From Bacteroidia bacterium (GTDB lineage: Bacteria > Bacteroidota > Bacteroidia > J057): a stretch of 64,000 nucleotides of DNA. The translations under genes and the position numbers were made by a program. The DNA lies in NCBI GenBank assembly GCA_033391075.1, contig JAWPMV010000001.1, forward strand, positions 1,550,001 to 1,614,000, written 5' to 3'. Below the pieces are notes generated by a model, which was not told where the DNA came from, ran no database searches, and saw only the letters and a program-made list of their open reading frames with translations. Positions 34,536 through 50,800 of this stretch are shown here, piece by piece. Position 1 is the first letter of the stretch; each line of letters opens with the position of its first letter.

Positions 34536-36380
34536 ATGAAATTCCTCAAACTACTGTTGCTATGCTGTTTCCTCCCACTCTATAGTTGGTGCCAGGACAA
34601 ACCCAATATTCTTTGGCTGGTTTCAGAGGATAATTCCATCCACTACCTGGATATGTATACGAAAGGAGCTGCTAAAATGCCTCACATAGAAAATCTGGCA
34701 AAAAAGGGCTTGACCTTTACCCATGCATTTTCTCAGGGACCCGTATGTTCTGTGGCGAGAAGTACTTTGATCTCTTCTTGTTACGCTCCTCGAATCGGGG
34801 TACAATATCATAGGAGGACCCAGAAAGCTCCTATGCCTGAAGGGATTCAGATGTTTCCCTATTATCTACGACAGGCTGGCTATTATACAAGCAATAATGC
34901 GAAGGAAGATTATAACATCATAAAAAGCGAAGGGGTTTGGGATGAATCCTCTCGTAAAGCGACCTATAAAAACCGAAAGGAAGGCCAGCCATTCTTTCAC
35001 GTACAGAATTTTGGAACGACCCATGAAGGAAGACTCCATTTTAGTCGGGAAGAAATGGCGGCTAATCCCACAGAAAAAAATCCTGATGACATCACGCCAT
35101 TCCCCTACCATCCCAATACAGAAATCAGTAGATATACCTATGCCAAATACCATGACTTGCATGCAAAGGTAGATCAACAAATTGGTGCCTTCCTCAATCA
35201 ATTGGAAGAAGATGACCTAATGGATAATACCATCATTTTCTACTATGGAGATCATGGAGGAGTACTGCCCAGAAGCAAAGGATACATTTATGAAAGTGGA
35301 TTGCATGTGCCCTTGGTAGTCTATATTCCCGAAAAATGGAAAACCCTGGCACCCGCAGATATGGGAAGCAAAGTCGATCCTTTTGTGAATTTTATGGATT
35401 TTGGACCTACGGTACTCAATTTGGCTGGCGCTGAAATTCCGGAAGGCATAGATGGTAAGCCTTTTTTGGGAAATGGAGTGAGTAAGGAAGACTGGGAAAG
35501 AAGAGATTATGTATTCGGCTATGCAGATCGTTTTGACGAGAAATATGATTTCGTCCGCAGCTATCGCAAAGGCAATCTCAAGTACATCCGTAATTATCAA
35601 CCATTCAATTATGATGGTTTGCACAATTTCTATCGCTATCGAATGCTTCTCTATCAGGAATGGAGAGAGCTTTACCAGGCAGACCAACTCGATAAAGTCC
35701 AAAGACAATTCTTTGAGCCCCGTCCTGCTGAACAGCTATTTGATCTCAGTAAGGATCCGCATGAGGTAAACGATCTCTCCAATGATCCTGAATATAAAGA
35801 TGAATTAATAGCTATTAGGCAGGCCTTTACGAAGCATATGGATCAAATGATTGATCTTAGTTTTATCCCGGAACCATATTTTATTGAGCAGGGCATTGGA
35901 AATCCCGTCGCTTTCGGGCAGCAAAACAAAGAATTGATTCAGGAGCTTCGGGAGATTGCCGATTTGCAATTAGTTCCATTCAAAAAAGCCAAAAAGCGAC
36001 TCAAGGAAATCTTCCGTTCGTCTAATCCCTGGAAAAGATTCTGGGCGAGCATAGTCCTGAGTTCTCATGGGAAGTCCGCCAAATATTATTATTCTTTGGC
36101 CAAATTTCTGGCTGTGGCAGATGAAAATAATCTGGTAAGACTGAGGGCTACCGAATTTCTTGCCCTGACCGATGAACAAGACCCGGAAAAAAATATCCTG
36201 CAAATATTAGAAGCTGCTAAAACAAAAACAGAAGCCAATCTCATATTGAATACAGTAACCCTTCTGATGGATGCTAAAGCCTATTCTTTTGATTTGAGAA
36301 GATTGAAATTTAATGCCAAATGGCTGACAGAAGGAGACGCATTGGTGATGAGAAGATTGGAATACCTACTGGATAAATAA
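34536..36380 (+). CDS. Sulfatase-like enzyme with variant CSVAR motif and C-terminal helical domain
   Basis: The 614-residue protein has a signal peptide of about 19 residues and a sulfatase core resembling the heparan N-sulfatase type. It differs from the other three sulfatases of the window. The usual metal pair DD is Glu31-Asp32 (SEDNS). The maturation motif is C71-S-V-A-R, with Val where C-x-[PA]-x-R has Pro or Ala. Later core motifs such as YYGDHGGVLPRSKG are intact. After about residue 480 the sequence becomes helical (RLRATEFLAL-type HEAT-like repeats). A sialidase follows after 7 nt. It may hydrolyse N- or O-sulfate, or use unmodified Cys or another hydrolytic chemistry if it is not matured. 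Confidence 0.88.
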   Translation: MKFLKLLLLCCFLPLYSWCQDKPNILWLVSEDNSIHYLDMYTKGAAKMPHIENLAKKGLTFTHAFSQGPVCSVARSTLISSCYAPRIGVQYHRRTQKAPMPEGIQMFPYYLRQAGYYTSNNAKEDYNIIKSEGVWDESSRKATYKNRKEGQPFFHVQNFGTTHEGRLHFSREEMAANPTEKNPDDITPFPYHPNTEISRYTYAKYHDLHAKVDQQIGAFLNQLEEDDLMDNTIIFYYGDHGGVLPRSKGYIYESGLHVPLVVYIPEKWKTLAPADMGSKVDPFVNFMDFGPTVLNLAGAEIPEGIDGKPFLGNGVSKEDWERRDYVFGYADRFDEKYDFVRSYRKGNLKYIRNYQPFNYDGLHNFYRYRMLLYQEWRELYQADQLDKVQRQFFEPRPAEQLFDLSKDPHEVNDLSNDPEYKDELIAIRQAFTKHMDQMIDLSFIPEPYFIEQGIGNPVAFGQQNKELIQELREIADLQLVPFKKAKKRLKEIFRSSNPWKRFWASIVLSSHGKSAKYYYSLAKFLAVADENNLVRLRATEFLALTDEQDPEKNILQILEAAKTKTEANLILNTVTLLMDAKAYSFDLRRLKFNAKWLTEGDALVMRRLEYLLDK

Positions 36381-36387
36381 GATCGAA

Positions 36388-37959
36388 ATGAGAAGACTAG
36401 TTCTGCTTTTTCTCCTGATTCCCGCTATTCTGAATGGCTTGTTAGGGCAAGATATTCATGCGATACAGTATCAAAAGATTAGACCTGTTTTGCTTGGCAA
36501 AGAGCATAATGTGATTCTCTATCTGGAGCTGGAAAATAAGGATGCAGAAAAGCCTTTCGTGCTGGAAGAAATTTATTTAAGCAATTCCGGGACAACTGCG
36601 CCTGAAAAGATTCAAAGCATGCGTATTTATTATAGCAAGGATACGCTTTTGCCTGCCTCCCAAGAGCAATTCTCTTTTACTCGCTCAGGAAAAGAATCTA
36701 TGGTATTTGAAGGTAGTCTGAAATTGGGGAAAGGAAAGCATTATTTATGGATGAGTGTTGCCCTGGATAATGAGTATCCTTTGGATGGGTGGCTTAAATA
36801 TTCTTGCCTCTCTTTGGGTTTTGATCATGAAATACTTTCTGATATTAAAGAAAAAACTCCCCTTCAGAGACTAAGCGTTGGACAGCTAATTCGAAAGCAA
36901 GGACAAGAAGGAGTAGATACCTACCGTATACCTGGACTCGCGACTACCAAGAAGGGAACTCTGATTGCTGTCTATGATACCCGGCGGAATAGTTCGACCG
37001 ATCTTCAGGAAGACGTGGATGTAGGTATGTCCCGTTCTATGGATGGAGGAAAGACGTGGGAGCCTATGAAGATCATCATGGACATGAAAAGATGGGGAGG
37101 AAAGCCGGAAATTGAAAATGGAATCGGTGATCCCTCCGTTTTGGTAGATCGGGAAAAAGGGGTGATTTGGGTTGCAGCAATTTGGGCGCATGGACATCCC
37201 GGCAAGAGAAACTGGTGGGCTTCAAAGCCTGGAATGGAACCCACAGAAACCAGTCAATTTGTCCTGGTGAAAAGTGAGGACGATGGAAAAAGCTGGTCAG
37301 AGCCTATCAACATCACTTCTCAGATTAAGGATCCTTCCTGGTATCTTTTACTGCAAGGACCGGGAAAGGGCATCCAGTTGAAAGATGGAACCCTGGTTTT
37401 TCCCGCACAGTTTAAAAATAAAGATCAGATTCCCCATTCGACTTTGATTTATAGCAAAGATCATGGAAAGACCTGGATAATCGGAACTGGAGCCAAATCC
37501 AAAACTACGGAATCACAAATCGTGGAATTGAGCAATGGCGACCTTATGCTGAATATGAGAGATGATCGGGGCAGGGAGAACCCTCAGGGAGGATTTCGTT
37601 CAGTGGCGATCACCCGCGATTTAGGCAAAAGCTGGGAAGAACATAGCAGTTCAGGAAACGCCTTACCTGAACCTGTCTGTATGGGCAGCCTCATTAGCAC
37701 AACTTATAAAGGAGAGGAACTCCTGCTTTTTTCTAATCCAGCAGTCTCCAAAGGCCCCAGAAGACGGATGACCCTCAAAGTCAGTAGAGATCAGGGGAAA
37801 TCCTGGCCGACTAAGTATCATCTCTTGCTTAATGAAGACAATTCATATGGCTATTCTTGTTTGACGATGATAGATGAGGAAACTATTGGCATTCTTTATG
37901 AAGGCCAGAAAGAGATGTTTTTCCAACGGATTTCTTTAGCAGACTTAATTTCAGAATAA
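36388..37959 (+). CDS. Exo-alpha-sialidase, GH33-like, exported
   Basis: Sialidases release terminal sialic or related nonulosonic acids. The 523-residue precursor has a signal peptide (about 1-20, ending GLLGQ), an N-terminal beta-sandwich (about 21-165), and a six-bladed propeller. The arginine-triad start RIP lies at 180-182 (YRIPGLATT). Asp boxes of the S-x-D-x-G-x-[TS]-W type appear five times: SMDGGKTW, SEDDGKSW, SKDHGKTW, TRDLGKSW and SRDQGKSW. It is located between a sulfatase and an esterase with 7-nt and 1-nt gaps, so the three probably act together on a sulfated, acylated glycan. The exact sugar may be Kdn- or Kdo-like rather than Neu5Ac. Confidence 0.92.
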   Translation: MRRLVLLFLLIPAILNGLLGQDIHAIQYQKIRPVLLGKEHNVILYLELENKDAEKPFVLEEIYLSNSGTTAPEKIQSMRIYYSKDTLLPASQEQFSFTRSGKESMVFEGSLKLGKGKHYLWMSVALDNEYPLDGWLKYSCLSLGFDHEILSDIKEKTPLQRLSVGQLIRKQGQEGVDTYRIPGLATTKKGTLIAVYDTRRNSSTDLQEDVDVGMSRSMDGGKTWEPMKIIMDMKRWGGKPEIENGIGDPSVLVDREKGVIWVAAIWAHGHPGKRNWWASKPGMEPTETSQFVLVKSEDDGKSWSEPINITSQIKDPSWYLLLQGPGKGIQLKDGTLVFPAQFKNKDQIPHSTLIYSKDHGKTWIIGTGAKSKTTESQIVELSNGDLMLNMRDDRGRENPQGGFRSVAITRDLGKSWEEHSSSGNALPEPVCMGSLISTTYKGEELLLFSNPAVSKGPRRRMTLKVSRDQGKSWPTKYHLLLNEDNSYGYSCLTMIDEETIGILYEGQKEMFFQRISLADLISE

Positions 37960-40385: not shown

Positions 40386-41765
40386 CTATCGATTCAACTT
40401 TACTGCATAAATCGTAGAATTGACTTTGGTAGGAAAGATCATGCTGGAAGTTGGTTTCTGAGATTCAATTCCCCCAAAAAACCATCCAATGGTAGTAGAG
40501 CCAGCAGGTACTTTTGAAAGATCAATGGAATTTCCTTCATAAATGTACTGTTGATCCGCAAAGAAAATAGCATTTGAGCCTAGGAGTTCGGGCAGTTGAG
40601 GCTCGTTTGGAGGCATTTGTACTTTTTGAGTCAACTGATTGTTCTGCCAACTCATTTGGGTAATGCTTTTTACAAATGGAAGTTTGGCTCCATTATCTCC
40701 CTTTTCCCATTTCCAAACTCCGGAAGAATCAACCAATTGGCTTTCTCCTATCCCTCCCAGGATCACATGGGTATTGCTAGCCGAAGCCTGATCAACCACG
40801 GATACAAGGGGAGCTGTATATTGGTTACTGATTTGTTGTAAACTATTTTCAGCATAGGTAAAGGCCCCATTATTAGCCATCATACTTACAGGAGTTACAT
40901 ATCCTCCATCATTGGGAGTAAATACCCCTCCATATGCTACGATATTTGCGCCTGACTGCAGGTGCAGTTCTGTAACATTGATATCTCTTCTTCTAAATAC
41001 CTGATTAGAATAGCTGCTCGTATCATAAACCAGATGCTCTCCAAATTTAAACACTCGGGTAGCCCCTGTATATTTTCCCGTTTTTCCGGGCACATACACG
41101 CCATCATAGTTCTGACCAAACATGAGGTAAAAATACTCCCCGTTTCTCTGCAATTCTCCTCCGGATACCTGAACAAAAGGAGTATTATCAGCAATCTTCA
41201 TTAAAGACTTGAAAGGGTTGACGCCTTGTTCTACCTTTTCAATCATGGTAGATACCTGCAAGGATAGCATGCGAGGAATGGTAACATTGCTTTGAATATC
41301 CTGGGCCAGATTTCTTCCATAGCCACCCGCGAGAAAAAGGGTATCTCCATCCTGAAGAAAGGCCATATTGCTGGAAGAGAACTGGAGATACATGGGGTTA
41401 TTCCACTGGATATCATAGCTACTTAAGCTGTACGTATCTAAATCGATAACGTGGATTCCTGAATTAGCCTTGCTACTTTTAAAAACAGTATCTCTTTGAG
41501 AGAGTCCATGAAATCCATTGGTTCTTCCTCCGATCAATAACATTTTATTGCCTTGCCTCGCCCAGGCAAAAGAGTGAAAGCCCGGGATTGGAGCCGGAGG
41601 ATTAACCGGCTCAATACTGATGGTGAAATTGGGTACGGCTGCTAAATCTTCGATTTCTACTTCCGGTTCTGTACTACCGGATGTGGATTGATCAGAACTG
41701 GGACCACATGAGATCCCTATCCAGCTCATGAAGAAAAGGTATATGCATATTTTAAAGAATCTCAT
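40386..41765 (-). CDS. Kelch-like beta-propeller lipoprotein
   Basis: The 459-residue protein has a lipoprotein signal (Cys20 in GISCGPSS) and then degenerate kelch-like blades with recurring patterns such as MLLIGGRT, LFLAGGYGR, NIVAYGGVF and HVILGGIGE spaced at roughly blade distance. No enzyme motif is evident; I found no convincing galactose-oxidase-type ligand set. It is the last gene of a minus-strand operon, 2 nt after the VioB-like gene. This tight coupling suggests that the two proteins work together at or near the envelope. The role is otherwise unknown. Confidence 0.75.
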   Translation of the reverse strand: MRFFKICIYLFFMSWIGISCGPSSDQSTSGSTEPEVEIEDLAAVPNFTISIEPVNPPAPIPGFHSFAWARQGNKMLLIGGRTNGFHGLSQRDTVFKSSKANSGIHVIDLDTYSLSSYDIQWNNPMYLQFSSSNMAFLQDGDTLFLAGGYGRNLAQDIQSNVTIPRMLSLQVSTMIEKVEQGVNPFKSLMKIADNTPFVQVSGGELQRNGEYFYLMFGQNYDGVYVPGKTGKYTGATRVFKFGEHLVYDTSSYSNQVFRRRDINVTELHLQSGANIVAYGGVFTPNDGGYVTPVSMMANNGAFTYAENSLQQISNQYTAPLVSVVDQASASNTHVILGGIGESQLVDSSGVWKWEKGDNGAKLPFVKSITQMSWQNNQLTQKVQMPPNEPQLPELLGSNAIFFADQQYIYEGNSIDLSKVPAGSTTIGWFFGGIESQKPTSSMIFPTKVNSTIYAVKLNR

Positions 41766-41767
41766 AA

Positions 41768-44011
41768 CTAAGTTTGATTAGAGTTTGGATTATTATTGAT
41801 GTACTTAACCCAGGCTTCCAGGAGCCTTCTTTGGGAATCACTTAGCTCTCTTGATTTGGGCATATAGAGCACATCGTTCCATATATCAAGGCTGGTTCTC
41901 TGCAAAACCAAGCCTGCCATAGTGCCATTTTGCCAAACCTCTTTAGTAAAAGGATGAATAGACGCCATAACAGGATAAACGACATCATAAAGCTTGAATA
42001 TTTCCTCATAAACAATGTCGAAAGTTACGGGTAAGCTTCCATTCTCGTACTGACTATAATCCTTGAATTCATGTACTCTCAGACAGACAAAACCCCCGGT
42101 ATCCATAATGGTATATCCTCCTGATGCATTGGTATAGGGAGGAATTTGATTATTGGGATATTGGCCCTCATACACAAAATAGTAGGACGCATTATCTGTT
42201 AACTGTACCGGGCCATTTACCAGATTTACGATATCATTATCCTTCAATTGAAGGGTAACAGTGCTGGCATTTTCACCATAAGGTGTCATGGGATCATTCG
42301 CCGCTTCCGGGGCCCTGAATTTCGCTACAATTACATTTATAGGCTCTGTAACTGGGAATCCTTTTTGCATGATTCGTAGCCTACAAGGTATTCTTTCCTT
42401 GTCATAAACCCGATAACCCAAAGAGGCATCATCATTTTCATTCGTATATAAACCCTTAGTATCCGAAATCATCATATATTCGGATTCAAGAAGCACACTT
42501 TTATTTTCAGAACCAGTATTGAGGCTTACCTGTATAAGATTTTGCTGAATCTGATTGATTAATTGGTCTCCTTGTATCAGAAAATCAAAGACACAGCCTT
42601 TGGCGAAAACATCCAATCGCGGATTTGCGGATTCATTCACCTCTATTGACGCAAAGATATTGCTGGGCTGATCTTTGGGATGAAAGTTAAGCATCCCCAA
42701 TTCCCATGTATGAAAATTTGCCTCCCCTCTATAAATGGGCCAGGTATTATCTTCTGGCCAGGGTAAGTTTTTGTCAATGGCCTCTGGCCAGGTATTCCCC
42801 ATATCAATTGAAAACAGAGCTGTATCTGCATCCAGTCTTTTTAAGCGAGATATGGCCGGAGCCAAAGGAACTGAGCTGACCTGAGAGTTTGGACCGGTTC
42901 GTGTAAAGCTCTCCTGGCCCAGAGATATGAGATTCCTTCCCAGTACTCCTGTCTTCATATCCCCTTCGTACCAGGGGGTAATATTTCCCACTGTTCTGGC
43001 TGTTGCAGGATTTTGGGGAAATTTAACTCCTTTTGCTTGTTCTTCGAGGTACCAGCTTTGGTTGATCCGGTTTTCAAAAATTTCGAAGGTAGTAAAACTC
43101 ACAAACACGCCTTTTATCGGGCGAGGGTCATCCTTGTTTGCATTAAAGAAAGCCAGCAATTGCGATTGCTCCTGATCCGGTATTTCTTCCAGGGGTATAG
43201 AGGATACCCAGCGAGCAGAGCCCGCCATAGGAGGAAACCAGTTTACCGTACGCCAATTGGCATAGAGTAGGGCTGAGAAACGGAAAGGCTTACCAGAGAG
43301 GAATACATTGTCCGGGTTTTGAGTTTCAAATAGATTCGCCTGGCTACAGAATATATTGGCATACACGGATTGGTTGGAGATCGTTTCGACCATAGATGCC
43401 GTAGATATTCCACTGCCCGGAACAGTATCCAGATCAAAAGAAGCTCCCAAAAATGGTTTGACATCTGGAGGTGCGTTGGTAATATCTGAAGGTTGCCAGG
43501 TTACCGGTGGCTTATTGCTTTCAGGATCGAAAGTTGTTACTCCTGATACATGGACTTGACTCATTCGCACACTCATATCCCCCCACATATTCCAATAGCC
43601 TGTTACATCTCCTTGAAAAGGAGGTCGGGGACCACCTGCCAGGTCATTTTTTGAAGCCTCATAAAAAGGGAAATAGCCTGCATCAGGAGAATTATTATCT
43701 TGGCCTACAGGGGTAATACACCATTGTCGCAGCTTCTCTATGGTATCAATAGATTTAATTTCAATAAACCATAGCGGTAGATTTGTAGAACTATCTATCA
43801 GATATGGATCCGCTTGAGGATCCGGGTCAAATGGAACCGAGACTGCATCTATTTTTTCTTTAGTTGTAAAATAGAGTCTGGGGGGAAAGAAGGGTCTGGA
43901 TCGTGTTGCATCATACAACGTAAGCGGAAAGGTGTAAGCATTGTTTATAGTCGGAACATGGATGTCAACATTTCCATGAAAATTAATCCGGGGGAGATCA
44001 AAGAGTCCCAT
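41768..44011 (-). CDS. Homologue of the N-terminal half of VioB/RebD, lacking the ferritin-like half
   Basis: The 747-residue protein starts MGLFDLPRINFHG and ends with VVYPVM and YMPKSRELSDSQRR. These match, as I recall them, the start (ILDFPRIHFRG) and mid-protein (LVYPFM, YMPSTRELS) of VioB, the iminophenyl-pyruvate dimer synthase of violacein synthesis. An internal RMSQVHVSG also parallels VioB. The polypeptide stops where VioB continues into its ferritin-like catalytic domain. There is no signal peptide and no membrane helix. The function of this half is not established to my knowledge. It is preceded by flavin oxidase and histidine kinase genes and followed after 2 nt by a kelch lipoprotein gene. 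Homology rests on motif recall, so a profile search is needed for certainty. Confidence 0.7.
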   Translation of the reverse strand: MGLFDLPRINFHGNVDIHVPTINNAYTFPLTLYDATRSRPFFPPRLYFTTKEKIDAVSVPFDPDPQADPYLIDSSTNLPLWFIEIKSIDTIEKLRQWCITPVGQDNNSPDAGYFPFYEASKNDLAGGPRPPFQGDVTGYWNMWGDMSVRMSQVHVSGVTTFDPESNKPPVTWQPSDITNAPPDVKPFLGASFDLDTVPGSGISTASMVETISNQSVYANIFCSQANLFETQNPDNVFLSGKPFRFSALLYANWRTVNWFPPMAGSARWVSSIPLEEIPDQEQSQLLAFFNANKDDPRPIKGVFVSFTTFEIFENRINQSWYLEEQAKGVKFPQNPATARTVGNITPWYEGDMKTGVLGRNLISLGQESFTRTGPNSQVSSVPLAPAISRLKRLDADTALFSIDMGNTWPEAIDKNLPWPEDNTWPIYRGEANFHTWELGMLNFHPKDQPSNIFASIEVNESANPRLDVFAKGCVFDFLIQGDQLINQIQQNLIQVSLNTGSENKSVLLESEYMMISDTKGLYTNENDDASLGYRVYDKERIPCRLRIMQKGFPVTEPINVIVAKFRAPEAANDPMTPYGENASTVTLQLKDNDIVNLVNGPVQLTDNASYYFVYEGQYPNNQIPPYTNASGGYTIMDTGGFVCLRVHEFKDYSQYENGSLPVTFDIVYEEIFKLYDVVYPVMASIHPFTKEVWQNGTMAGLVLQRTSLDIWNDVLYMPKSRELSDSQRRLLEAWVKYINNNPNSNQT

Positions 44012-44132: not shown

Positions 44133-46259
44133 TTAGTTTTCAAATTGCTTAATAGGTACTTCAATTTTCATTTCAGTACCTTCTCCTGGCTGGCTGCTAA
44201 CGAGGATTTTTCCTTTATGATTCTCGATGATACCATAACTAATGGATAAGCCAAGTCCGGTTCCTTCTCCCACATCCTTGGTAGTAAAGAAGGGTTCAAA
44301 TATTCTTGATTGGATTTCTTCTTTAATGCCAATTCCATCATCCTTGATCTTGATCCAGGCATTCTTAGCATCTGTCCCGGTTGTAATTCGAATATTGCCT
44401 TTATCTCCTATGGCTGTAATCGAATTGTCCAGGATATTCATAAATACCTGATTGAGTTTGCCAGGGATACTCTCGACCAAAGGGAAATTGGGATCGTATT
44501 CCTTGATGATGGTGATATTGTTCAGTTTATTATCGAGCAAGGCAAGGGTAGAATCCAGTCCTTTGTGAAGATCAATTTCTTTAAACCCATCTTCATCAAG
44601 ACGAGAGAAATTCTTTAGACCAGAAACAATATCCCGAGTCCTCTTGGAACCTTCTTCTATTCCTTCTACCAATCCCTGCATTTCTACAAAGAGGAAATTG
44701 AGGTCCATTTCTTTAGCATAATCTGAGGCTTCTTTTAGCTCATTTACAATCTCACCCTCTGATTTAATGGCCTGGTATTTTTCGACAACCTGCTTGACTT
44801 CCGAAAGATCCAGTTTCAAAGAATCTATATTAGAGATGATGAAATTTACAGGATTATTGATTTCATGGGCGATCCCTGCGGTAAGTTGTCCGAGGGAGGC
44901 CATTTTTTCAGACTCTACCAATTGGGTTTGAGCCGTTTTCAATTTCATCAGGGTCTCCTGAATTTCCTCTTTTTGTCTGACAACTTCTTTCGTACGTTCA
45001 ACTACTTTTCCTTCCAACTCCTGATTGGCCCTAAGTTGGATGGTCTCATTTTCTTTTAATTGGAAAATGATCTCTTCCTGTTTTCTGGCATTCTCTTCTT
45101 TTAGCACATTGATTCTGTCCGCCAGGGCAAAGGAAAGAAGGATAACTTCTGTCATGTGGCCAATGTATATGCCACTACTTGTAAAGGAATTACTAGGAAT
45201 TGCTCCTCCAATACTTAATATAAAAATGATTACAAGAATCAGGAATAAGGTCCATGCGATCAGGAAAAACTTGGCGGACCTGTCTCCTCTTATCCATCCC
45301 CTTATCCCCAAACCAATATAAAAAGTACAGGAAAGGGTGCTGAACAATTGTGCTAATTGATCAGCCGCTGCATGATTTCCACTCAAATTTACTCCGGCCA
45401 GTACAATGAACAATCCAATAAAGCCTATGCCAATCCGGTAAGGAATTTTATCTTCAGAACTAATATTCAAAAACCTGAAGGTGAACAACATCACCGGAAT
45501 ATTGGTGAGACAAATGATCATCGGTAAATAGAAGTTCATCCCTGGATTATTGGGCCAAAGGAGTTTGAACGAACTTCCCTGCAATCCCAAATAAAAGATG
45601 GTGGAACCCAGAATATAAATAATGTAGTATAGGTAGGTCCTTTCTCGGGTCGAAAAGAAGATGAAAAAGTTGTAGAGGAAGGCAAAGATCATGATACCTA
45701 TATACAAACCCCAGAAGACATTTTCCTGTGTTTTACTACTGGCAAAGGCTCGCGCTTCAGATACATTTATTGGCATCAGGAAAGGATAACCTGTTCTTGC
45801 CTTGAGATAGTAACTTCTGCTTTCTCCTTGTTTCAGTTCGAGATTGAAGGTCCAATTCTCGGCCAATATGGGTCGATGGTCAAAGACATTGCCTATTCCA
45901 CCGCTGTATAATAGGCTTTCTGTACTATCCCCGATTTCATAAACCTCTATCTCTTCCAATAAGGGGCTACCTATCTCAAGGAAGAGAGAAGAATTACTTT
46001 CGTTGATTAGGCTAAATCTTACCCAAACGGGATAAGGGATGCTTGCCAAATTCAGCACTCCGCTTTGTAAATCCTGAAATTCAGCTCCTTTCAGGCTGCT
46101 AAGATCAGCGGTAGAGCTGGAATCGACATAAAATTCTAGCCCTTTTCCAAAGCTGTAGGATTGCCCTGACTTGATCGCTATGGGAGATTGGGCAATTGAA
46201 ACATTACAGAAAACTGCAAGTCCAATCAGACAAAAAATCTTAATAGGGTTCATACACAA
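44133..46259 (-). CDS. 7TM-DISM sensor histidine kinase
   Basis: The 708-residue protein has a signal peptide (about 1-23), an extracytoplasmic DISM-type beta-sandwich domain (about 25-175), and seven hydrophobic helices (about 180-380). A coiled coil follows (385-450), then a HisKA/HATPase kinase with phospho-acceptor His465 (AGIAHEINNP) and ATP-binding motifs in DNSITAIGDKG, KDDGIGI and GEGTGLGLSISYG. DISM domains are thought to sense carbohydrates or related ligands. Its start lies 20 nt inside the end of the flavin oxidase gene, so translation is coupled. An ATG two codons later (46253) is an equally plausible start. No receiver domain or adjacent response regulator is in the operon. Confidence 0.92.
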   Translation of the reverse strand: MCMNPIKIFCLIGLAVFCNVSIAQSPIAIKSGQSYSFGKGLEFYVDSSSTADLSSLKGAEFQDLQSGVLNLASIPYPVWVRFSLINESNSSLFLEIGSPLLEEIEVYEIGDSTESLLYSGGIGNVFDHRPILAENWTFNLELKQGESRSYYLKARTGYPFLMPINVSEARAFASSKTQENVFWGLYIGIMIFAFLYNFFIFFSTRERTYLYYIIYILGSTIFYLGLQGSSFKLLWPNNPGMNFYLPMIICLTNIPVMLFTFRFLNISSEDKIPYRIGIGFIGLFIVLAGVNLSGNHAAADQLAQLFSTLSCTFYIGLGIRGWIRGDRSAKFFLIAWTLFLILVIIFILSIGGAIPSNSFTSSGIYIGHMTEVILLSFALADRINVLKEENARKQEEIIFQLKENETIQLRANQELEGKVVERTKEVVRQKEEIQETLMKLKTAQTQLVESEKMASLGQLTAGIAHEINNPVNFIISNIDSLKLDLSEVKQVVEKYQAIKSEGEIVNELKEASDYAKEMDLNFLFVEMQGLVEGIEEGSKRTRDIVSGLKNFSRLDEDGFKEIDLHKGLDSTLALLDNKLNNITIIKEYDPNFPLVESIPGKLNQVFMNILDNSITAIGDKGNIRITTGTDAKNAWIKIKDDGIGIKEEIQSRIFEPFFTTKDVGEGTGLGLSISYGIIENHKGKILVSSQPGEGTEMKIEVPIKQFEN

Positions 46260-47796
46260 TTTTGGTTTCTTTGAAGAGAATTTTTTGATCCTTCATCTCC
46301 TTCATTTCGGCATCCGGTCCAATGGATTGTTGGTAGCGAAAGAAATTGTCAGGATCGTACTTATTCTTAATAGTAACCAGTTGTGTGTAATAATTGCCCC
46401 AGTAGGCCCATCTGTAATCTCGCTGATTTCTGTTGGGATAATTTTGATAGGAATGTCCATTTCCATATTGAGCGAGGAAATTGAAAAATCCTTCCAGCCA
46501 GATCTTATTGGCTTCTCTGTCGTTAGTGATTGAATTATAGAGTGCGTCGCAAAAGAAGTCCATTTGGACATTACGGTGTATAAAAGCAGAGTTTTCAATC
46601 GGGAATTCATTTATTCTTCCTCCATAGAATTCCAGATCAATCATGGTATAATCGTTGGGAGCGGTTTTCATGAAATAAGAAAGAATTGCCTCCCAGTCGC
46701 TGGTGCCTAATTGATGATCTATATACATGCTTCGTGTGAAAGCATTTGTTTGCACGGTATGTGGAATATTGGGAACTCCTTCTAATAACCATCCATTGAT
46801 GGTGGAGTATTTGCCATTTTTTATTTGAATATCACTCGCCCCATTCAAAGAGGTCAGAGGTTGTATTGCCGCCTCAAGACTTGCCTGATCTCCAACCCAT
46901 GTGCCTCTGAACATAACTTTTCTATGCCTATCCGTATCCATTGTAATCGGAATTTGCATACCAAAGTTTGGGTATTTATCCTGCGTAAGTAACTCATTTT
47001 GCATGGTGTAAAGAGCTCTTGCAGCATCAGGTAAATTATCGTTTATATCCCAGTCAATCTTTACTCCAAATATGTTTCCTAATTCGTAAACCCGATAGGT
47101 AATATTCAGTAATACCCCAAAGTTTCCTCCGGTTCCTCCTCGGATCGCCCAGTACATGTCTTCATTCTGAGATTCATTGGCAACCACTATGCCTCCATTT
47201 GCAAGCATAACTGTTACTGCAAGCACATTGTCGCAGTTCATGCCAAATGTCCGGGAGGTTAATCCATATCCTCCCCCCATCATATAACCAGCTACGGCAA
47301 CAGTTGGACAACCTCCTCCTGGTAGATGAAGTCCGTAAGATTCCAAATGACCATTTAAGTTTCCAAAGAGAACCGCTGAATCGACCGTTACGGTTTTATT
47401 ATTATAATCTACATATATGCTATTCAGATTTCGAAGATCTATCACCAGTCCATCACAAACAGAGTAGTCCGCAAGGCTATGCCCTCCGGATCGAATAACG
47501 GTCCAGAGATCTATCGAATTGGCAAAACTCAGGAGTTCGCGAATGTCATTGTAATTTTCTACCAGTGCAATGATTTGAGGATCTGTTGGATAGGTATTGC
47601 TAAAATCGTTTTTGTATTGATTGTAATCCGGAGACCAGGGAAAGATCAGTCTACCCTGAATTTTCAGTTCGAGTTTTTTGAGTTTAGTTCTGGAAATCTT
47701 GCTCTTGGAAGGGATTAGAGATCTGCTACTTTTTTTCTTCAGTAAAGAGATAGATTCTTCTTTGAGTAATTGAGTGGGGGTTTTGCGGTGGCTCAT
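46240..47796 (-). CDS. FAD-dependent oxidase, berberine-bridge-enzyme type, probably bicovalent flavin
   Basis: The 518-residue protein combines an FAD_binding_4 domain with a C-terminal BBE domain (NKYDPDNFFRYQQSI). His106 in IRSGGHS and Cys163 in GGGCPTVAVAG occupy the positions that form 8-alpha-histidyl and 6-S-cysteinyl links to FAD in bicovalent members. Such enzymes oxidise sugars or secondary metabolites using oxygen and produce H2O2. The first about 45 residues are basic and serine-rich with no evident secretion signal. It is the first gene of the minus-strand operon with the 7TM kinase, the VioB-like protein and the kelch lipoprotein. The substrate is unknown. Confidence 0.9.
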   Translation of the reverse strand: MSHRKTPTQLLKEESISLLKKKSSRSLIPSKSKISRTKLKKLELKIQGRLIFPWSPDYNQYKNDFSNTYPTDPQIIALVENYNDIRELLSFANSIDLWTVIRSGGHSLADYSVCDGLVIDLRNLNSIYVDYNNKTVTVDSAVLFGNLNGHLESYGLHLPGGGCPTVAVAGYMMGGGYGLTSRTFGMNCDNVLAVTVMLANGGIVVANESQNEDMYWAIRGGTGGNFGVLLNITYRVYELGNIFGVKIDWDINDNLPDAARALYTMQNELLTQDKYPNFGMQIPITMDTDRHRKVMFRGTWVGDQASLEAAIQPLTSLNGASDIQIKNGKYSTINGWLLEGVPNIPHTVQTNAFTRSMYIDHQLGTSDWEAILSYFMKTAPNDYTMIDLEFYGGRINEFPIENSAFIHRNVQMDFFCDALYNSITNDREANKIWLEGFFNFLAQYGNGHSYQNYPNRNQRDYRWAYWGNYYTQLVTIKNKYDPDNFFRYQQSIGPDAEMKEMKDQKILFKETKIVYEPY

Positions 47797-48811: not shown

Positions 48812-50800
48812 ATGAGAAAGAATTTTTTTCTCTTTTTTCTTGTTCTTGTTTTTTCCCCCTTCTTCGAAATTTCAGTTCTACTTGCCCAAAACAATGGCCC
48901 CGGAAGTGGTCGCAGAGACGGGCGGGTAAATGGACGGAGAGTTCGAATACAAACCCGTAATATCGTCGATACAAGCCAATGTGCTCGCATGGAATTCCGT
49001 ACGATAGATGGTACTTGTAATAATCTGAGAAGTGCTGAAAGTATGGAATTTGGTGCCCGTGATATTGTATTGCGGAGATCCCTACCTCCAGCATATGGAC
49101 TGACAGACCCTTTCAATGCTATGGGAGGTGATAATCGCTTCTCAGCCCGTGCTATTTCAAATATTGTTTCTGCCCAGACGGGCCAGGAGCCAAGCAATCA
49201 AAACCTCAGTGCCTTTGTGTTCAGCTGGGGGCAATTTCTGGATCATGATATCAGCCTTACTCCGGAAGCTCATAACGAATTTGAACCCATCTCTTTGCCC
49301 GCAAATGAGCCTCTTTTTACCCAGGAAATCCCCTTCTTTCGCTCAGAAATTTTTGCTAATACCGGCCAAGTAGAAGCTCGGGAACAATTGAACCTGATCA
49401 CAGCCTGGATAGATGCTTCCATGGTCTACGGATCAGAACCCTTGCGTGCCGATTGGTTGAGGACTCATCAAAATGGAAAATTGAAAGTTTCCAGTGGAAA
49501 TCTATTGCCCTTTAATACGCTCGACGGAGAATATGGAAGCCCAATTGATACAGCCGCTCCCAGTATGGCGGGGGTAGATGCGAATGGAAGAATGTGGGTA
49601 GCTGGAGATATTCGTGCGGGGGAACAAACAGGCTTGACTTGCTTGCATACCCTTTTTGTTCGGGAGCATAATCGGCTTTGTGATGAGTTGATCGGGCAGG
49701 GTTTACAGGATGATGAAGAAATTTATCAGAAAGCCCGTGAACAGATCATCGCACAGATACAAAAGATCAGCTATGATGAATTTTTACCAGCTATGGGAGT
49801 ATCTCTGGATAGATATGAAGGATATGATAGTCGAGTTCGACCCGATATCAGCAATGAATTTGCTACGGGGGCCTATCGTTTGGGGCACACAATGGTTACC
49901 GGAGGAGTACGCCTGGTAGATGCAAATTGTCAGCCGATGCCTGACTCTTTGGTGAGCCTGATAGAAGCTTTTTTCAATCCCTCTATTATTCAGAATAATG
50001 GGATAGATCCCTATTTGAAAGGATTGAGTCTTGAGGTCCAGTCGGAGGTTGATTTATTGATTGTCGATGAGCTCAGAAATTTCCTCTTCAGTGATCCTAA
50101 TAGCTCTCCAATCGTAGCAGGTTTTGATCTGGCGGCCTTGAATATTCAAAGAGGTAGAGATCATGGCTTGGCGGACTATAATAGTGCAAGGCAGCGTTTC
50201 CGGGGACGAACTGCACGAGACTTCTCAGATATCAGTCGAGACTCATTGACAGCAGCTCGCTTATCCGCAGCTTATCAGGGAGATATCAACAATATTGACC
50301 TTTGGGTTGGACTCCTGGCTGAGGATAAGGTAAATGGGACTTCTTTAGGACCCACGCTCTTAGCCATGCTCAAAGATCAGTTTGAACGATTGAGGGACGG
50401 GGATCGCTTCTATTTTGAGAATTCACTGGGCCGAAATGCGCTTTCAAATATCGATAATACAAGCCTTTCTGATATCATCCAGAGAAATACCCAATTGAGT
50501 GATCTTCCCTCAAATATCATGTTTGCTTCTACTTGCAATGGAAATGTGCAAAACAACAATCGACTTGCCAGCCAACTGGATATTTTCCCTAATCCCTCCG
50601 AAGGAGAAATCAGGATCAAAAGAAGTCGAAAAGATATTCGAATAGAGGCCTTTAGCGTCATTGACCTAAGGGGTATGACCCTTATCAATCGAAGGGCCTA
50701 TGAGCGCAGAATAGATCTCTCATTTTTACAGCCCGGCACCTATTTTATACAAATTTTCACCAACAAAGGAATGGCAACAAAAAGCCTGGTAATGGAGTAA
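48812..50800 (+). CDS. Animal-type haem peroxidase with T9SS sorting domain, secreted
   Basis: The 662-residue precursor has a signal peptide (about 1-25), a peroxidase domain of the myeloperoxidase/peroxinectin family (about 60-560), and a C-terminal T9SS type A domain (FPNPSEGEIRIKRS, ending FTNKGMATKSLVME). The distal side reads GQFLDHD with His145, and the proximal haem ligand is His359 in YRLGHTM. LTCLHTLFVREHNRL and NIQRGRDHGL are further family marks. It would use H2O2 to oxidise halides or phenols outside the cell. Sources of H2O2 may include the BBE-type oxidase encoded 1 kb away, but this is inference. Bacterial members are far less common than plant-type catalases/peroxidases. Confidence 0.93.
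   Translation: MRKNFFLFFLVLVFSPFFEISVLLAQNNGPGSGRRDGRVNGRRVRIQTRNIVDTSQCARMEFRTIDGTCNNLRSAESMEFGARDIVLRRSLPPAYGLTDPFNAMGGDNRFSARAISNIVSAQTGQEPSNQNLSAFVFSWGQFLDHDISLTPEAHNEFEPISLPANEPLFTQEIPFFRSEIFANTGQVEAREQLNLITAWIDASMVYGSEPLRADWLRTHQNGKLKVSSGNLLPFNTLDGEYGSPIDTAAPSMAGVDANGRMWVAGDIRAGEQTGLTCLHTLFVREHNRLCDELIGQGLQDDEEIYQKAREQIIAQIQKISYDEFLPAMGVSLDRYEGYDSRVRPDISNEFATGAYRLGHTMVTGGVRLVDANCQPMPDSLVSLIEAFFNPSIIQNNGIDPYLKGLSLEVQSEVDLLIVDELRNFLFSDPNSSPIVAGFDLAALNIQRGRDHGLADYNSARQRFRGRTARDFSDISRDSLTAARLSAAYQGDINNIDLWVGLLAEDKVNGTSLGPTLLAMLKDQFERLRDGDRFYFENSLGRNALSNIDNTSLSDIIQRNTQLSDLPSNIMFASTCNGNVQNNNRLASQLDIFPNPSEGEIRIKRSRKDIRIEAFSVIDLRGMTLINRRAYERRIDLSFLQPGTYFIQIFTNKGMATKSLVME

Follow-up and report, generated by a model that had tools for sequence, protein, structure and literature searches.

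A free-standing homologue of the VioB/RebD N-terminal half, next to a sensor kinase gene in a Bacteroidia genome

The VioBN gene and its relation to VioB/RebD

The DNA analysed here, called the window below, is a stretch of 64,000 nucleotides from a Bacteroidia bacterium (GCA_033391075.1, contig JAWPMV010000001.1, positions 1,550,001-1,614,000 of the forward strand). On its minus strand, at 41768..44011, lies a gene with an ATG start for a protein of 747 residues, which is a stand-alone homologue of the N-terminal half of VioB/RebD. These proteins and StaD are imine dimer or chromopyrrolic acid synthases, acting in early steps of the bisindole pathways to violacein, rebeccamycin and staurosporine. 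We use VioBN as a working name for the protein family forming this N-terminal half. The four motifs that an initial annotation of the DNA had listed in the reading frame (DLPRINFHG, RMSQVHVSG, VVYPVM and YMPKSRELS) are all present at the exact coordinates on the minus strand. DLPRINFHG covers residues 5-13, and its PRINFHG part (residues 7-13, 43973..43993, minus strand) holds the invariant R8, F11 and G13, while YMPKSRELS (residues 716-724, 41840..41866, minus strand), 23 residues short of the C-terminal end, holds the invariant M717 and R721. That annotation set VioB motifs beside them; the three RebD-like proteins that we took from databases read DLPRLHF[AR]G and YMPP[ST]RDL[TS]. No signal peptide is evident from the sequence of the window protein.

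A single-sequence comparison gives only a weak signal of this homology. The NCBIfam VioB model TIGR04492 matches window VioBN with E 6.8e-5 and 20.8 bits over model positions 494-581 of 1003, just ahead of the ferritin-like half. The curated cut-off of this equivalog model is 1250 bits, far above the score of the protein, and none of eight VioBN genomes contains a protein exceeding it. The first six relatives, namely that of locus L008 (from a Cytophagales metagenome-assembled genome (MAG), 40% identical), those from four genomes besides the window's own and one Gloeothece plasmid protein, all match the same model, with E 3.7e-5 to 2.1e-16.

The profile-profile comparison with three RebD-like reference proteins (from plasmid records of Pseudonocardia, Nocardiopsis and Streptomyces clavuligerus) is far clearer. 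With 13 VioBN rows the match has a probability of 99.7%, E 1.2e-26 and 510 aligned columns, spanning columns 79-659 of the 1103 in the RebD profile and ending ahead of the ferritin-like half; with seven rows the values are 99.3% and E 1.7e-20, and with six rows the probability is 98.4%. Eight controls (one reversed, five column-shuffled and two against the kelch-like family described below) gave 0.0-0.2%. A hidden Markov model (HMM) of the 13 VioBN rows, free of RebD sequences, finds all three RebD-like proteins, residues 1-22 included (E 7e-34, 8e-29 and 1e-23, in a search space of these three sequences alone), and against their reversed copies it gave one match with E 0.53. The proposed profile match to the N-terminal half of VioB/RebD is thus borne out over nearly the full length. 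The Pfam scan offered no model for the VioB N-half and no enzyme family for window VioBN or the six relatives. A search of the PDB with window VioBN gave as its top match a coat protein (E 0.18), which we take as chance, and profiles of the RebD-like or VioBN proteins met no chain up to E 1; according to an excerpt of a review from 2021, there was as yet no structure of VioB (PMC9705886). AlphaFold models of window VioBN, made from its sequence alone or together with that of L008, were unusable, with a predicted local distance difference test (pLDDT) score of 29.6 and 32.6, respectively.

The ferritin-like half (PF12902) was sought as a separate gene in the window genome, which is 99.21% complete, and none was found; the window protein itself does not contain this half of VioB/RebD. 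Among 19 searched genomes with a ferritin-free VioBN locus (the Gloeothece locus lies outside the 19), PF12902 was not found in 17, one of the searched MAGs, that of L008 (G888), being only 62% complete. The two exceptions carry it on another contig (G461) or beside a second VioBN copy (G954). In 291 genomes of the order of G190, the centre's own genome included, VioBN occurs in 17, PF12902 in 15 and both in five (G166, G861, G954, G956 and G969). With the window's own genome included each time, VioBN was found in 5 of 395 genomes of the phylum by a single-sequence query and in 2 of 22 of the window's own order; at class level, a seven-row profile found it in 11 of 395. No VioBN was found in viral contigs, and the plasmid search gave one stand-alone VioBN, on the Gloeothece plasmid. 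In the open-access literature, a scope outside which most subscription literature falls, there was nothing on a free-standing VioB N-half among the matches listed.

Genes beside VioBN

In the window, VioBN belongs to a set of four minus-strand genes, for an EncM/berberine-bridge-type FAD (flavin adenine dinucleotide) oxidase, a 7TMR-DISM histidine kinase, VioBN and a kelch-like lipoprotein; L008 has these four families as well, and in addition a VTT protein. The kinase gene (44133..46259, minus strand, 708 residues), 121 bases upstream of VioBN, encodes a 7TMR-DISM membrane sensor histidine kinase with PF07695 (E 1.5e-45), PF07696, HisKA and HATPase_c all above cut-off. Its start is overlapped by the oxidase gene (46240..47796, minus strand, 518 residues), the product of which has PF01565 (FAD_binding_4, E 3.3e-25) and PF08031 (BBE, E 6.4e-12) above cut-off and finds EncM as its best PDB match (E 7.6e-52). 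The His in SGGHS and the Cys in GGGCPTV of this oxidase may fit the motif for a bicovalent FAD.

The kelch-like gene (40386..41765, minus strand, 459 residues) starts 2 bases past the VioBN stop, and its product is predicted to be exported, with a lipobox (...GISC) read from the sequence. The name kelch-like comes from the repeated invariant GG motifs of the family and from a weak match of the window protein to the Pfam kelch model PF24681 (E 0.0019, 18 bits) that falls below the cut-off of 50; a PDB search with the family profile gave no match up to E 0.1.

The absence of a vioA, C, D or E context, which the initial annotation had noted, still stands. Four neighbours were scanned (the oxidase, the kinase, the kelch-like protein and a haem peroxidase) and the rest were assessed by their translations, and neither VioA/RebO nor tailoring enzymes were recognised among them; genome-wide, vioB was the only one of these genes sought, vioA not being included. 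The peroxidase is of the animal haem type with a type IX secretion system (T9SS) sorting domain and lies on the other strand (48812-50800, plus), and between it and the VioBN cluster is a gene that reads as phosphatase-like. Further away, at 34536-37959 (plus strand), are proteins that, to judge by their sequence, read as sulfatase-like and sialidase-like, with repeated S-x-D-x-G-K-T/S-W motifs. A promoter and terminator scan gave counts close to those of shuffled sequence.

We compared 27 VioBN proteins at 26 loci (L069, on the same contig as L008, was left out). The slot directly 3' of VioBN holds a ferritin-like gene at 6 of the 26 loci (five separate, one fused), a kelch-like gene at nine, and neither at 11 (L008, L009, L010, L013, L034, L039, L070, L071, L073, L074 and L076), so that a recurring choice of partner in this slot is seen. 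The separate ferritin-like genes (L037, L077, L078, L079 and L081, all PF12902 matches) follow VioBN with gaps of 10-41 bases, and L038 is a VioBN-ferritin fusion of 911 residues with PF12902 at 594-797. The kelch-like gene follows with gaps of -4 to 31 bases in the window, L011, L012, L072, L035, L036, L080 and L082. At L075 (8262-11588), VioBN and the kelch-like domain share one frame of 1108 residues, and where they meet lie the signal sequence and lipobox of the kelch part; this in-frame join, seen once and close to the end of a contig, carries little weight.

At 14 of the 20 ferritin-free loci (the window, L010, L011, L012, L013, L034, L070, L071, L072, L073, L074, L076, L080 and L082) the first upstream gene on the same strand encodes a signalling enzyme, with an opposite-strand gene in between at L010, L070, L071, L073 and L074; at L008 such a gene is the second one upstream. 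The assignments of all 15 come from Pfam scans. The remaining five ferritin-free loci (L009, L035, L036, L039 and L075) have no signalling enzyme in these positions. Neither does any of the six ferritin-linked loci, where the first upstream gene on the same strand encodes an exonuclease (L037), an amine oxidase (L077), an integrase (L078), a methyltransferase (L081) or a protein without a Pfam family (L038 and L079). VTT-type membrane proteins are found at 8 of the 26 loci and an Omp85-type family at four, most of them by similarity to scanned members. Taken together, these data confirm a free-standing VioB N-half family that occurs mostly in genomes without the ferritin-like half and often beside signalling genes.

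A family of 321-497 residues (cl3) is encoded on the opposite strand beside VioBN at L010, L013 (two copies), L034, L070, L071, L073 and L074; its one member scanned with Pfam gave a match far below cut-off, and five of these seven loci also carry the small families cl4 and cl5 nearby. G954 has two VioBN types, one with a ferritin-like gene (L079) and one with a kelch-like gene (L080), and upstream of the latter is a protein kinase-AAA-GAF-cyclase, an arrangement that recurs in G940 (L082). At L039 (8223-12204) two VioBN genes for 679 and 640 residues stand in tandem, 19 bases apart, with neither a ferritin-like nor a kelch-like gene beside them, and PF12902 was not found in that genome.

Since 7TMR-DISM genes number only 4-13 per genome in ten genomes (nine in the window's), their adjacency to VioBN would rarely arise by chance. 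The linked sensors have different outputs: a histidine kinase in the window, L010, L070, L071, L073 and L074, a SpoIIE phosphatase at L008 and L076, and a cyclase at L013 and L034. In a quick tree of the sensor halves (no bootstrap, long branches, and 18 of about 70 paralogues, drawn from 20 chosen regions of which two gave no sensor match), eight linked sensors form one group with all three outputs mixed (Shimodaira-Hasegawa-like approximate likelihood ratio test (SH-aLRT) 97). Those of the window and L008, despite their differing outputs, form a second group (95), which is nested in a larger set made up mostly of paralogues (99). From this tree, the link between VioBN and the sensor appears to have formed, or formed anew, on two occasions, with the outputs changing and the sensor halves staying related. 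Such variation in output above related sensor halves suggests that the sensor's input, and not its regulated target, would be coupled to the local genes, which may supply that input.

Conserved residues, selection and descent

The conservation alignment of 27 VioBN proteins with the three RebD-like N-halves (30 rows) has ten positions that are invariant whatever the partner: R8, F11, G13, T21, G144, G342, R359, E509, M717 and R721. G551 and P553 are kept in 29 rows and D517 and P718 in 28, and position 209 is Asp in 28 rows and Glu in window VioBN. No His or Cys column rises above 12 of the 30 rows. VioB has been described, in the excerpt of the review cited above, as having catalase activity and heme b (PMC9705886), and part of another article describes chromopyrrolic acid synthases as heme-containing (PMC10851217). 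A heme site in the N-half of VioB, considered as a candidate, was not adopted in view of these columns; they speak against a conserved His or Cys heme ligand in this half, and go no further than that. At 18 positions the residue is retained by 8 or all 9 of the ferritin-linked rows but by no more than 40% of the 21 ferritin-free ones. This set of ferritin-associated positions, eight of which fall within residues 678-735, could mark an interface with the ferritin-like half.

The ratio of nonsynonymous to synonymous substitution rates (dN/dS) of three ferritin-free VioBN pairs among the relatives is 0.16, 0.17 and 0.07 (two further VioBN pairs and one kelch-like pair were saturated and unusable), and these are therefore living genes. 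The purifying selection on the ferritin-free VioBN proteins implies an independent function for the N-half.

In the maximum-likelihood tree of the 30 rows, window and L008 VioBN are sisters (support 100/100) and belong to a group of 16 rows, all of them ferritin-free (100/98). The other group (100/100) comprises six ferritin-linked Bacteroidota rows, the tandem pair of L039 and the kelch-linked L080 and L082. Partner type requires six changes on this tree, compared with 14.5 in shuffles. The program flags two joins at which long branches come together, so that the tree gives neither a firm root nor a firm sequence of fusion and fission. The initial annotation spoke of a VioB-type domain "separated from" the ferritin-like enzyme; the homology holds, whereas the implied fusion-first order is not shown by the tree, and free, adjacent and fused forms all exist.

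Possible role of VioBN and comparison with known systems

It is quite possible, if still tentative, that VioBN is a selected, stand-alone module that binds partners and handles small molecules, works without the ferritin-like half and, not being an oxidising catalyst itself, acts on the product of a neighbouring oxidase. In VioB/RebD this oxidase is VioA/RebO, and the ferritin-like domain would carry out imine coupling; in the window it would be the EncM/BBE-type flavoenzyme. The cytoplasmic VioBN would bind or shape the oxidase product, the kelch-like lipoprotein would be the partner on the envelope side, and either that product or its effect would be sensed by the 7TMR-DISM kinase. An oxidase feeding a VioB-type protein may be a common theme: within four genes of VioBN we recognised EncM/BBE (window and L008), GMC (L035), amine oxidase plus LodA (L077) and LodA (L078) enzymes. 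A wider proposal, which we consider rather improbable, treats VioBN as a module for small molecules in general, the partner of which can be exchanged. Coupled to a ferritin-like protein it would become a biosynthetic imine-coupling enzyme, and with the kelch-like lipoprotein and a sensor it would be the ligand supply of an unrecognised sensory system, in which VioBN handles a compound made by the oxidase, the 7TMR-DISM receptor reads it and the outputs (kinase, phosphatase or cyclase) are freely exchanged. The initial annotation suggested that the free-standing form could reveal the role of the N-half; gene context has narrowed that role but has not revealed it.

Several observations weigh against a small-molecule module with its own oxidase and partner. 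The oxidases were recognised at only 5 of the 26 loci, among partly scanned neighbours, and belong to at least three unrelated types. Neither partner gene stands 3' of VioBN at 11 of 26 loci (at L008 the kelch-like gene is upstream), and all locus counts are raw, without correction for shared descent. In the sensor tree, the other eight linked sensors are more distant from those of the window and L008 than paralogues are. The kelch-like search of the 291 genomes gave matches in 16, at 17 places, of which seven are at VioBN loci and ten elsewhere, and the regions around six of the ten, when read, held no VioBN; the seven VioBN-linked places are the strongest (E 1.4e-136 or better), the other ten being weaker. 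Direct contact between the two proteins also needs explaining, as the kelch-like protein is predicted to be exported whereas no signal peptide is evident in VioBN. Nor is there support for an obligate partnership of the kelch-like family with VioBN, with 10 of 17 places lacking a known VioBN link (six of them read).

Two other functional explanations were weighed against this module. VioBN might itself be an enzyme, with invariant Arg, Glu and Thr residues forming an active site in VioB/RebD and in the free forms alike and the partners performing other steps. The ten invariant residues (R8, T21, R359, E509 and R721 among them), together with D517 in 28 of 30 rows, are what such a site would call for, as is the purifying selection on ferritin-free copies in genomes without PF12902; we find this idea doubtful all the same, given the absence of any Pfam enzyme family (window protein and six relatives), of a match to a solved structure and of a conserved His or Cys, and given that invariant Arg and Glu can be structural. 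Alternatively, VioBN and the kelch-like lipoprotein could be accessories of an envelope stress-signalling unit without small-molecule chemistry, the kinase simply controlling the operon. The upstream signalling gene at 15 of the 20 ferritin-free loci and the VTT-type and Omp85-type proteins agree with this, but cyclase and SpoIIE phosphatase outputs are not dedicated controls of local transcription, flavin or quinone oxidases lie no more than four genes from VioBN at five loci, and the relatives VioB/RebD are biosynthetic enzymes, so that we regard a pure stress unit as unlikely.

Two further accounts are regarded as refuted. That the window gene is a decaying remnant of a full VioB after loss of its ferritin-like half might be suggested by the L038 fusion in a genome of the same family; the full open frame, the intact invariant motifs, the low dN/dS of the three relative pairs (0.07-0.17) and the well-supported place of the window and L008 proteins together in the ferritin-free group make it very improbable. 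That the likeness to VioB is chance or motif mimicry could draw only on the weak single-sequence TIGR04492 match, and with the profile-profile result and its near-zero controls at hand we give it practically no credence.

The free-standing VioBN is a clean object for studying the N-half of VioB/RebD on its own, and the partner swap connects a biosynthetic domain with one class of bacterial seven-transmembrane (7TM) sensors in a way that can be tested.

Among known systems, the EncM/berberine-bridge-type oxidases share with the window oxidase the FAD_binding_4 and BBE domains and provide its best structural match. EncM is a polyketide pathway enzyme, and its gene context is unlike that of the window. 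The nearest match to the whole cluster is L008, which has a VioBN 40% identical to that of the window, a kelch-like protein, an EncM/BBE-type oxidase (45% identical) and a 7TMR-DISM sensor; its sensor, however, ends in a SpoIIE phosphatase, a VTT membrane protein is added and the gene order is different.

The five split pairs of VioBN and ferritin-like genes (all from Bacteroidota) also have a free-standing VioBN, in frames of 562-663 residues, but the ferritin-like gene follows it closely and no kelch-like gene stands beside it. In two of them, L077 (6749-16568) and L078 (4334-11772), the pair lies near LodA (a quinoprotein of the lysine epsilon-oxidase type) and a LodB-like (Trp_halogenase) flavoprotein, with an amine oxidase in L077. 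Such an arrangement resembles a biosynthetic cluster in which VioB is split, and we found no description of it; fungal lodA/lodB loci with a nearby PF12902 gene are described in a passage of one article (PMC4417212). In L037 (435-10261), as in L009 (2345-8771), VioBN lies near relatives of genes annotated in Gloeothece as 3-dehydroquinate synthase and TatD, with the ferritin-like gene present in L037. The gene order of L037, with its putative ebo-like genes, resembles that of the ebo cluster. Part of one article ties ebo to the export of a scytonemin precursor (PMC6282210). The ferritin-like half of VioB also occurs alone, beside a GMC oxidoreductase, at L017 (3302-6230; by annotation in a Methylobacterium plasmid) and at L124 (8024-11039; by Pfam).

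Compared with VioB/RebD/StaD themselves, window VioBN differs in having no PF12902 half in its protein (and none found elsewhere in its genome), in scoring 20.8 against 1250 bits with TIGR04492 and in having no vio or reb genes among its scanned neighbours. What it has in common with them is the homology to the three RebD-like proteins over the first 22 residues and most of 80-650, the first and last motifs, and the ten residues that are invariant in all.

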